From the NCBI RefSeq assembly GCF_009909205.1, contig NZ_JAAAPN010000003.1, forward strand, positions 186,001-250,000: a stretch of DNA of 64,000 nucleotides, read 5' to 3'. Made by a program: the position numbers and the translations under genes. Positions 17,179 to 20,249 of the stretch are shown one piece after another. Each line of letters starts with the position of its first letter. The first letter of the stretch is position 1. The stretch comes from Aquabacterium fontiphilum. Its GTDB lineage: Bacteria; Pseudomonadota; Gammaproteobacteria; Burkholderiales; Burkholderiaceae_C. The notes beneath the pieces were generated by a model that worked only from the letters and a program-made list of their open reading frames with translations, made no database searches and had not been told where the DNA came from.

Positions 17179-17442
17179 AAATGGCCCAGGAGAGGTTGTT
17201 CGGCGACTGCGCCTGCCCCTTCCGGGCCAGAAGGAGGGCAGGCCAACCGACGCATGGTGCGAGGGTGCAAGCGCTTGTGGCGTTGCACGAGCCGTTACGC
17301 ACCGTGAAATTGTAGGACTCGGGCCCGATACCCCCCCAGTGGTACACCAGCAAGTGAGGGGTCAGTTCGTGAGTGCGATTGTATCTGGATGTAAATACGC
17401 TGCGCGACCGTTGCCACCCAGACACGGGGGCGCGCGCCTAGA
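17179..17442. other. divergent intergenic region, rhlE / dnaX
   Basis: A region of 264 bases between two divergent starts. It must hold the promoters of both, but I find no convincing -35/-10 pair. A TAAATA at 17392-17397 is the best -10-like hexamer for dnaX. The 85-codon minus-strand ORF here (17425-17168) has no recognisable features and is not called. Confidence 0.5.
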
Positions 17443-19251
17443 ATGCCGGCCATGACGTCGACGGTTCTCGCCCGCAAGTACCGCCCCCATGGTTTTGAGG
17501 CCATGGTCGGGCAGGAGCATGTTGTCCAGGCGCTGCGCAATGCGCTGATGCAGGGGCGTCTGCACCATGCCTACCTGTTTACCGGCACGCGGGGCGTGGG
17601 CAAGACCACGGTCTCGCGCATCCTGGCCAAAGCGCTCAACTGCGTGGGCCCTCAGGGAGACGGCGGCATCACGGCCGAACCCTGTGGCGTGTGCCAGGCG
17701 TGCCGTGACATCGATGCCGGGCGTTTTGTCGATTACGTCGAACTGGATGCGGCGTCCAACCGTGGTGTCGAAGAGATCTCCCAGTTGCTGGAGCAGGCGG
17801 TTTACAAGCCGGTGGCCGGGCGCTTCAAGGTCTACATGATCGACGAAGTGCACATGCTGTCGACCACGGCCTTCAACGCCATGCTCAAGACGCTGGAGGA
17901 GCCGCCGGATTACCTGAAGTTCGTGCTGGCCACGACCGATCCGCAGAAGGTGCCTGTCACCGTGCTGTCGCGCTGCCTGCAGTTCAACCTGCGGCCCATG
18001 CCGCCTGATACGGTTCAGGCGCATCTTGCGCGTGTGCTTGATGCGGAGCAGATTCCTTACGACGGGGCGTCGTTGCGGCTGCTGGGTCGTGCTGCGCGCG
18101 GCTCGATGCGTGATGCACTGTCGCTGACTGATCAGGCCATTGCATTTGGCTGCGGCCGGCTGGACGAGCCCGTGGTACGCCAGATGATTGGGGCGGTCGA
18201 TCGCCAGCACATCACCGAGTTGCTCGACGCAGTGGCGCAGGCCGATGGCGCAGCCGTGGTACGCGGTGTGGCAGGCCTGCGCCGTGCGGGCATCTCGGCG
18301 TCAGGCACGCTCGAGGAGCTGGCCACGGCCCTTCAGACCATGGCCGTGTGGCAACTCGCTCCGGGCGCGGCCGATGGGGATCAGCCTGACGAGGCCGCCT
18401 GGCGAGACCTCGCTGCGCGCTTTGCCCCCGACGAGACGCAGTTGTTCTACAGCCTGTGTCTTCAGGCCCGGGCAGAATTGGCCCTCGCGCCCGATGAATA
18501 CGGGGCGCTGCAGATGACGTTGTTGCGCGTGCTGGCTTTCCGGCCAGGCGGGCTGCCCGCGCAGCCTGGTGGAGGCGATCCGCCCCCAAAAGCGCCGGGC
18601 TCGGGGGCCCGCCGGATCGCCCCTGAGCCCGCCGCACCCTCGGCAGACTCACAGCCCGTCGCAACCCTGCGCGCAACGCCCCGACCGGAGGCTTCGCCTC
18701 CTCCATGGGTGGACGCAGGGCCGATGTCTGAACCCGAGCCGGTCAGCGAGCCGGTACGCGAACCCTTGGCTGCGCCGCACCTTGCGTCGCAGACCGCCCA
18801 TCCCACCGTGGCTACCGCGGCTGCCGTGGTCGCACATCCTGCACCCTCATCGCCTCTGGGCGACGCCTGGGCGGCGTTGGTGCGTGACATGGTTCAAGCC
18901 GGCCTGATCGGGGCCCTGGTGCGCGAAACGGCCATGCAGTCTCACTGCACGGCGCATGAGGTCCAGGCCGGCGTCAGCCACTGGCAACTCTGCGTGGCGC
19001 GCGAGAGCCTCTGTACCGATGCCCATCGTGAGCGGCTGGAGCATGCCATGACGCAAGCCCTAGGCCAGCCTGTTCGGCTGTCGCTGGTCAAAGGTGAGGC
19101 GTCGGACACGCCGGCCTTGCGGGAACAGGCCGAGCGCGCACGTCGTCAGGCCGCAGCCGAGCAACTGATCCAGGAAGACGTCACCGTGCGCAAGCTGCTG
19201 TCGACGTATCCGGGGGCACGCATCGTGCCCGACTCCATCCGGCCGCTGTGA
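17443..19251 (+). CDS. dnaX: DNA polymerase III subunits tau and (probably) gamma
   Basis: DnaX is the ATPase motor of the sliding-clamp loader. The full product has 602 residues: AAA+ domains I-III (Walker [10 protein letters not shown] near residue 47, Cys4-type zinc region CGVC/C, Walker B MIDEVHML, sensor [15 protein letters not shown]), to about residue 370. A Pro/Ala-rich linker follows, then the tau-specific region that binds the polymerase and helicase. ATG at 17443 or 17452 may be used. At 18585-18591 in the linker there is a C CCA AAA slippery heptamer in frame, with signals for a -1 shift to a stop at 18624 (separate entry). ybaB and recR follow, as is typical. Confidence 0.96.
18571..18626 (+). 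other. dnaX: candidate -1 programmed ribosomal frameshift site in dnaX
   Basis: SD-like GGAGG (18571-18575) lies 9 bases before an X XXY YYZ heptamer, C CCA AAA (18585-18591), which is in the correct phase. A hairpin CGGGC/GCCCG (18596-18600 and 18607-18611) starts 5 bases after it, and TGA in the -1 frame is at 18624-18626. A 9-bp inverted repeat GGCGATCCG/CGGATCGCC (18574-18582, 18613-18621) encloses the site. Shifted translation would give a product of about 394 residues that ends just after domain III, like E. coli gamma. Confidence 0.6.
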
Positions 19252-19315
19252 TCACGGCCGTGATACACCCTGTCTCGATGGACAATGTCGTTTTGTGATT
19301 GAAAGGATGCCCGTC

Positions 19316-19642
19316 ATGCTCAAAGGACAACTTGCCGGCCTGATGAAACAGGCCCAACAGATGCAGGACAACCTCAAGAAGGCCCAGGACGAGTTGGCCA
19401 ACGTCGAGGTGGAAGGCCAGTCCGGTGCGGGCCTCGTGAAGGTGGTCATGACCTGCAAGAACGACGTCAAGCGCGTCACCATCGACCCCAGCCTGCTGGC
19501 CGATGACAAGGACATGCTGGAAGACCTCGTCGCCGCTGCGTTCAACGATGCCGTGCGCCGTGCCGAGGCCACCAGCCAGGAGCGCATGGGCAAGCTCACC
19601 GCTGGCCTGCCCCTGCCGCCCGGCATGAAGTTCCCGTTCTGA
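19316..19642 (+). CDS. ybaB: YbaB/EbfC family nucleoid-associated protein
   Basis: This small DNA-binding protein of 108 residues forms a dimer and bridges DNA in studied homologs. It has the family start [17 protein letters not shown] (a helix rich in Gln/Lys), a Gly-rich strand turn ([13 protein letters not shown]), VTIDPSLL, and the C-terminal [12 protein letters not shown]. The ATG at 19316 lies 9 bases after GAAAGG. The in-frame GTG at 19295 and ATG at 19307 leave no room for that site. It sits between dnaX and recR, its standard place. Confidence 0.94.
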
Positions 19643-19661: not shown

Positions 19662-20249
19662 ATGCACGACTCAGCCGTAGACGCCCTGGTGCAGGCCTTG
19701 CGCTGCCTGCCAGGCGTCGGGCAGAAGTCGGCGCAGCGCATGGCTTATCACCTGCTGCAGCACGACCGCACCGGCGCTTTGCGTCTGGCCGAGGCGCTCG
19801 GAACCGCGATGGCCGACGTGCGGCATTGCGAGCGGTGTCACACCTTCAGCAGTGAGCCGCTGTGCCTGATCTGTCAGGATGACAGCAGGGATCACGAACA
19901 GCTGTGTGTGGTGGAGACACCTGCGGATCTGGCCGCCATGGAGCGCACGGGCAGCTACCGCGGCCAGTACTTCGTGCTGCTGGGGCGTCTGAGCCCGCTG
20001 GATGGCCATGGTGTCAAGGACATCGGTCTGCAGACCCTGATGCAGCGCGTGGCCGACCCCCAGCTCAAAGAGGTGGTGCTGGCCACCAGCTTCACGGCGG
20101 AAGGCGAGGTGACGGCTCAAGCCATCACCGAGTCCTTGCGCGCGCGCGGCTTGCGCGTCACGCGGCTGGCCCGCGGCGTGCCTGTGGGCAGCGAGCTCGA
20201 GTACGTCGATCTGGGCACCATCGCCCACGCCTTCATGGACCGGCGCTGA
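19662..20249 (+). CDS. recR: recombination protein RecR
   Basis: RecR works with RecF and RecO to load RecA at single-strand gaps. The 195-residue protein has an N-terminal helix-hairpin-helix ([20 protein letters not shown]), a four-Cys zinc finger ([16 protein letters not shown]), and a Toprim domain ([33 protein letters not shown]). A conserved C-terminal [17 protein letters not shown] segment completes it. It ends the dnaX-ybaB-recR operon and is 16 bases from the convergent mltD stop. Confidence 0.97.

Follow-up and report, generated by a model that had tools for sequence, protein, structure and literature searches.

A putative −1 frameshift cassette built on C_CCA_AAA in the dnaX genes of Aquabacterium

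Does dnaX of Aquabacterium encode one protein or two? In E. coli a −1 frameshift in the linker that follows domain III of DnaX gives rise to a shorter, shifted product, gamma, and it is the C-terminal part of the full-length product, tau, that binds helicase and polymerase. The E. coli slip site is A_AAA_AAG; the dnaX gene considered here, from a 64,000-nucleotide stretch of A. fontiphilum DNA (the window), has C_CCA_AAA in the corresponding linker, which places tRNA-Pro in the P site. A preliminary description of the window read this as a −1 frameshift cassette, and the comparisons reported below support that reading. The cassette is real and conserved, with the E. coli plan and a different heptamer, and very probably works in −1 frameshifting; its origin is probably separate from that of the E. 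coli site. The matter bears on an older debate, as the importance of gamma in E. coli has long been disputed (PMC5009743).

The dnaX gene and the parts of the cassette

The open reading frame lies on the forward strand at 17443/17452–19251 and encodes DNA polymerase III subunit gamma/tau, as judged from matches to NF005942 (623.3 bits, cut-off 613), TIGR02397 (393.7 bits, cut-off 250) and E. coli gamma (1jr3, aligned to DnaX residues 2–366, E 1.7e-111). The product has 602 aa if translation begins at ATG 17443, and 599 aa (64.0 kDa) from ATG 17452. Downstream lie a ybaB-like open reading frame (19295–19642) and then a recR-like one (19662–20249), both named from their translations.

The slippery heptamer, CCCAAAA, occupies 18585–18591 on the forward strand and reads C_CCA_AAA in the dnaX phase, so placed that −1 re-pairing would be on CCC and AAA. 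Nine nucleotides before it is GGAGG (18571–18575, forward strand), a Shine-Dalgarno(SD)-like putative stimulator with an anti-SD energy of −9.3 kcal/mol. A −1-frame TGA (18624–18626, forward strand) would end a gamma-like product 11 codons after the shift, giving a predicted 391 aa (41.9 kDa) from ATG 17452 or 394 aa from ATG 17443. Its predicted C-terminus is ...PPDRP in the window species, whereas most genus rows would end in ...PKS. These three elements had been located in the preliminary description and were confirmed in the sequence. Its suggestion that the shifted product ends just after clamp-loader domain III also stands: the CCA of the slip site is DnaX residue 379 (from ATG 17452), 13 residues past the region aligned with E. 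coli gamma.

The hairpin had to be redrawn. It had been described as a 5-bp CGGGC/GCCCG structure (18596–18600/18607–18611); the predicted fold is instead a 13-bp stem on the forward strand, with a 5′ arm at 18596–18608 and a 3′ arm at 18619–18631, that begins 4 nt after the heptamer and to which three outer pairs are added (18592–18594/18633–18635). The core of this stem (18598–18605/18622–18629) is kept in relatives, and the window stem extends 2 bp outward beyond it. Thus a downstream hairpin is indeed present, whereas its extent was misjudged, and the short version was rejected as the working structure because a larger stem is predicted and its core is conserved. The predicted fold of 18592–18640 reaches −35.4 kcal/mol (z −4.15; 0/200 shuffles equally low). 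Over 18560–18650 the contrast is weaker (z −2.06; 5/200 shuffles equally low), and the SD-like stretch is partly paired in this predicted 91-nt fold.

A 9-bp inverted repeat, GGCGATCCG (18574–18582) and CGGATCGCC (18613–18621), both on the forward strand, encloses the site and had been credited with a possible regulatory role. The repeat is exact. As a conserved regulator it was rejected: all nine pairs occur in 1 of 39 genus rows, with 8/9 pairs, elsewhere placed, in five more, and 27/2000 shuffles of the upstream 20 nt reach nine pairs. It is probably incidental.

With dnaX codon use, about 0.0055 in-phase C_CCA_AAA heptamers are expected per gene by chance. A bare heptamer of this kind does occur in locus L154, where the −1 stop is 96 codons downstream. 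That the combination is hard to ascribe to chance, as had been argued, is borne out: all parts of the cassette are found together and kept genus-wide, a pattern for which a chance origin is not plausible. A covariance model of the element, searched against the 3.65-Mb genome of the window, scored 50 bits at dnaX (a locus that is itself one of the model's training rows), the sole match at E <0.9; the next match reached 17.3 bits (E 0.95). Rfam, which we take to contain a dnaX element family, gave no match up to E 1 within 17400–19400.

Conservation within the genus

The genus sample comprised 42 genomes, in 41 of which dnaX was matched (G033 had no match at E 1e-100). The preliminary description had proposed alignment of relatives as its test, and within the genus every part is kept: the heptamer and its phase, the SD-like element, the stem and the −1 stop. 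Exactly one in-phase C_CCA_AAA is present in each of 39 of the 41 genes, and in the loci listed it sits 12–22 codons past the point where the LRxLAF-like motif at the end of domain III begins. Because the rows are related, a naive probability that treats them as independent would overstate the case for the heptamer and was not used. The two genes in which the heptamer is absent are L062 (G020) and L153 (G013). L062 retains GCTGAG, which resembles the hexamer that bears the stop in the other genes, and no slippery heptamer stands ahead of it.

The codon that precedes CCA may be CCC, AGC, CGC, CTC, GAC, TAC, GGC or CAC; it thus encodes any of eight amino acids (P, S, R, L, D, Y, G or H) and always ends in C. 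Elsewhere in the same genes CCA makes up 11.5% of proline codons and AAA 16.5% of lysine codons. An invariant third-base C despite eight amino acids, together with the use of two minor codons, points to selection on the nucleotides of the heptamer. Alignment A1 was selected by heptamer, so the heptamer's invariance in it provides no independent evidence.

A −1 stop is met within 11 codons in 39/39 genus rows: after one codon in 32, after eight in five and after 11 in two, the last two rows belonging to the window species and to L006, its nearest relative. In no-site genes the median distance to a −1 stop is 83 codons. Stops are near in the −1 frame specifically, for a +1-frame stop within 10 codons is found in only 5/40 C_CCA_AAA rows (one row a duplicate).

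In a single register, 6 nt past the heptamer, the stem has 8/8 pairs in 35 of the 39 rows and 7/8 in the other four, as against 8/8 pairs in 42/2340 control windows. In alignment A1, 98.7% of stem cells are paired, and sliding the partner by 1–3 columns lowers pairing to 25–48%. Four of the eight pairs are altered on both sides (5/500 shuffles as high), in 26 cells against a shuffled mean of 3.8. Covariation amounts to 0.280 compared with 0.121 for shuffled alignments (0/500 as high) and at most 0.096 when the partner is slid; three of the eight pairs are invariant and therefore uninformative in this respect.

Folding energy in the 45 nt downstream averages −28.0 in the genus versus −13.4 (sd 4.0) in control windows, which are upstream parts of the same genes and not codon-matched linkers. 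The no-site and A9 genes of the family served as second controls; against 60 no-site family genes (−21.0) the gap in folding is smaller. The best anti-SD 8-mer in the upstream 20 nt averages −8.25 kcal/mol in the genus, compared with −2.9 in control windows and −4.1 in no-site family genes, and ends 5–12 nt before the slip site; L020 is the single genus row with a weak SD (−3.8).

Mechanism and alternative explanations

The evidence shown here covers the anatomy and phase of the element, its conservation at the synonymous level, the covariation, the nearby −1 stops and the distribution among lineages. We have high confidence that the element is a programmed −1 ribosomal frameshift cassette yielding a gamma-like DnaX beside full-length tau. 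In outline, the downstream stem would slow a ribosome holding tRNA-Pro on CCA and tRNA-Lys(UUU) on AAA, and pairing between GGAGG and the anti-SD of 16S rRNA would draw it backwards; both tRNAs would then re-pair one base upstream, on CCC and AAA, and shifted translation would halt at the nearby −1 stop. The outcome would be a DnaX of about 391–394 residues with clamp-loader domains I–III and without the C-terminal tau part. The slippage itself, its efficiency, the re-pairing of the tRNAs and the role of the product are what we infer from the conserved design.

That design is close to the one known from E. coli, where the SD-like element lies about 10 nt and the stem about 5 nt from the slip site. 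An upstream SD-like element combined with a downstream stem is common to both systems (PMC3711429). Also shared is a stop one codon after the shift (PMC5009743), as found in 32 of the 39 genus rows; the window species, with its 11 codons, differs from E. coli here. The heptamer sets the systems apart. The AAA_AAA_G pattern of dnaX is known from nine genera (PMC3711429). Unlike the E. coli system, that of Aquabacterium combines an A-site AAA codon with a genome in which tRNA-Lys(CUU) is also present.

The window genome encodes tRNA-Lys with UUU and CUU anticodons, and tRNA-Pro with UGG (two), GGG and CGG. Across the genus, 30 loci from 30 genomes were scanned out of 42 genomes matching tRNA-Lys(CUU) DNA; tRNA-Lys(CUU) was present in 30/30, with tRNA-Lys(UUU) in the same locus in 26. 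C_CCA_AAG is found in none of the labelled genus rows. Possession of two lysine tRNAs has been proposed as a possible reason for RNA polymerase slippage in Thermus (PMC5009743). An AAA codon in the A site may make ribosomal slippage possible despite tRNA-Lys(CUU), though a CUU tRNA does not rule out AAG motifs in IS elements (PMC4066793). As for the P site, E. coli tRNA-Pro(UGG) with cmo5U34 decodes all four proline codons and pairs weakly with CCC (PMC4519876); such breadth of decoding makes re-pairing from CCA to CCC plausible. In E. coli, heptamers of the class V_VV.A_AA.R, to which C_CCA_AAA belongs, rank with the most efficient; this ranking applies to the class, and the sections consulted provide no separate value for C_CCA_AAA (PMC4066793). 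The related C_CC.A_AA.G, with the same X and Z and a last base that is A in Aquabacterium, is reported to have reached 54% when combined with the IS3 pseudoknot, the top value of that study, in E. coli reporter constructs and not in a natural dnaX (PMC4066793).

Three other explanations deserve consideration. The two products might originate at transcription, by slippage of RNA polymerase at the C/A tract and the production of mixed-length mRNAs. Thermus dnaX works in this way and Comamonadaceae may do so too; a clade adjacent in the family does carry exactly nine A and near stops in both other frames. In Aquabacterium, however, no homopolymer is long (the A run has four bases; the C run has 3 in 30 of the 39 rows, 5 in seven and 6 in two), the conserved stops are confined to the −1 frame, and conservation extends to a stem and an SD-like match that act on the ribosome. 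T. thermophilus reaches the same outcome (predicted here) in the same gene by slippage on A9; the window differs in having no A9, near stops in one alternative frame, and both stem and SD-like match. Transcriptional slippage is therefore a very unlikely source of a short product in this genus.

The block could also be conserved for the sake of the linker peptide (PKAEGS and its variants) and not for decoding. The P-K pair is indeed invariant, within 20 versions of the seven-residue stretch in 39 rows. Peptide selection, though, leaves unexplained the constant C before CCA and the minor codons described above, and it sits poorly with covariation in the stem that changes both amino acids (T-A to C-G, five rows); we consider it highly improbable. 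A further suggestion is that the hairpin and the SD-like element do no more than make the ribosome pause, for domain III folding or mRNA stability, while the −1 stops clear stray frameshifts. A stem and an SD-like match can stall a ribosome with or without a shift. Yet a pause has no need of an X_XXY_YYZ site, which 39 of the 41 genes nonetheless retain, so we give this suggestion very little credence.

Distribution in the family and order, and history of the site

A total of 266 loci was reduced to 245 rows by exact de-duplication of N-termini, 177 of them in the family of the window. The family is sampled in part: dnaX was matched in 296/299 genomes, from which 30 loci and 51 non-genus stretches were drawn, and 80 named loci were used beside them. 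The 177 family rows divide into 40 with C_CCA_AAA (39 genomes and a single duplicate, L076 = L148), 75 with an A9 run, 61 with neither and one with A_AAA_AAG. Conservation of the heptamer phase in close relatives, the lack of which the preliminary description had named as refuting its reading, holds within the genus; elsewhere in the family the element was not found, and genes have another site or none. L106 (Aquabacterium sp. A7-Y) lies outside the genus clade and has no site in about 50 linker codons.

Over 70 loci picked because they lack the full element, including L154, L190 and L220, whose heptamers are of another kind or due to chance, the covariance model scored at best 12.8 bits. Searched with stricter filters in 150 family genomes, it found matches in seven: three are genus genomes, matched at dnaX, and the other four (G046, G053, G122 and G154) have five matches, none at their listed dnaX place. 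The best non-dnaX match is in G122 (37.6 bits, E 3.0e-5).

The A9 rows (e.g. L063, L080, L087 and L091) carry nine A, always in one phase, in the linker that follows domain III. Recounted over all 176 anchored family rows, independently of the A9 labels, the longest linker A run is either six or fewer, or exactly nine in one phase. Among the 75 A9 rows, 74 have a −1 stop within 14 codons and 74 a +1 stop within 11; downstream folding is weak (−13.8) and there is no SD excess (−4.2 versus −4.1 in no-site genes). The needs of Thermus-type slippage have been described, with the caution that truncating cases are hard to judge by comparison (PMC1088944). Near stops in both frames, weak folding and no SD excess fit those needs, and the clade, mostly Comamonadaceae, is a candidate for transcriptional slippage of the Thermus type, which it resembles in its A9 and in its stops in both other frames. 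L190 (G290), inside the A9 clade, has A_AAA_AAG in place of the A9 run at linker codon 32, with a possible stem just downstream; it is a candidate for a switch from transcriptional slippage to ribosomal frameshifting.

A FastTree phylogeny of 230 DnaX N-termini, rooted on one distant row, contains 14 state changes in all. C_CCA_AAA rows form one clade of 36 (support 99) that adjoins L062 and L153 (93) and is nested in a no-site group (97). The opposite side has A9 in 70/73 rows, the remainder being two Lampropedia rows with no site and one row with A_AAA_AAG; support for the family's deepest splits is low (44, 19). An IQ-TREE analysis of 55 chosen rows, in which the window's own row and L153 were flagged as long branches, recovered the C_CCA_AAA clade (nine rows; 100/98) and a clade with the A9 rows (100/100). 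The join of the former with L062 and L153 received only 90/46, and the wider grouping that unites no-site with C_CCA_AAA rows 85/92. No-site rows are basal in this tree, and four changes suffice.

Confinement of the cassette to one clade amid no-site rows favors a separate origin, as far as the dnaX tree goes. On dnaX alone, two gains from a no-site ancestor would be the simplest reading; it is conceivable that an older site was instead lost in several lines. We lean towards the view that one family evolved a short DnaX twice: once in the mostly Comamonadaceae clade, where RNA polymerase would slip on a run of exactly nine A, and once in Aquabacterium, where the ribosome would slip at C_CCA_AAA, with site-less lineages between and below. 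In this view an A-site codon AAA, and not AAG, permits frameshifting despite tRNA-Lys(CUU). A second, apparently separate ribosomal dnaX cassette near a polymerase-slippage-like clade would be comparative evidence that both lengths of DnaX are selected. Relatives that would slip on the ribosome, slip on the polymerase or do neither make up a matched set for testing what gamma does and what part the tRNA-Lys set and the choice of heptamer play. In the open-access literature (subscription journals lay mostly outside the search) we found no paper treating dnaX together with Comamonadaceae, or Aquabacterium together with ribosomal frameshifting, and no such dnaX site among the matches listed from open-access titles and abstracts.

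The survey was extended across the order, where dnaX was matched in 89/90 genomes and 68 loci lie outside the family. Fifty-seven have no site, nine have A8–A10 runs, and two have heptamers: C_CCA_AAG in L220 and A_AAA_AAG in L247. In L220 the heptamer lies far down the linker. The A8–A10 linker runs, some likewise far down, are those of L211, L233, L239, L241, L249, L259, L263, L266 and L267. L247 (G378), from another family of the order, has its A_AAA_AAG at linker codon 38 with AAGGAGG upstream, an E. coli-like pattern.
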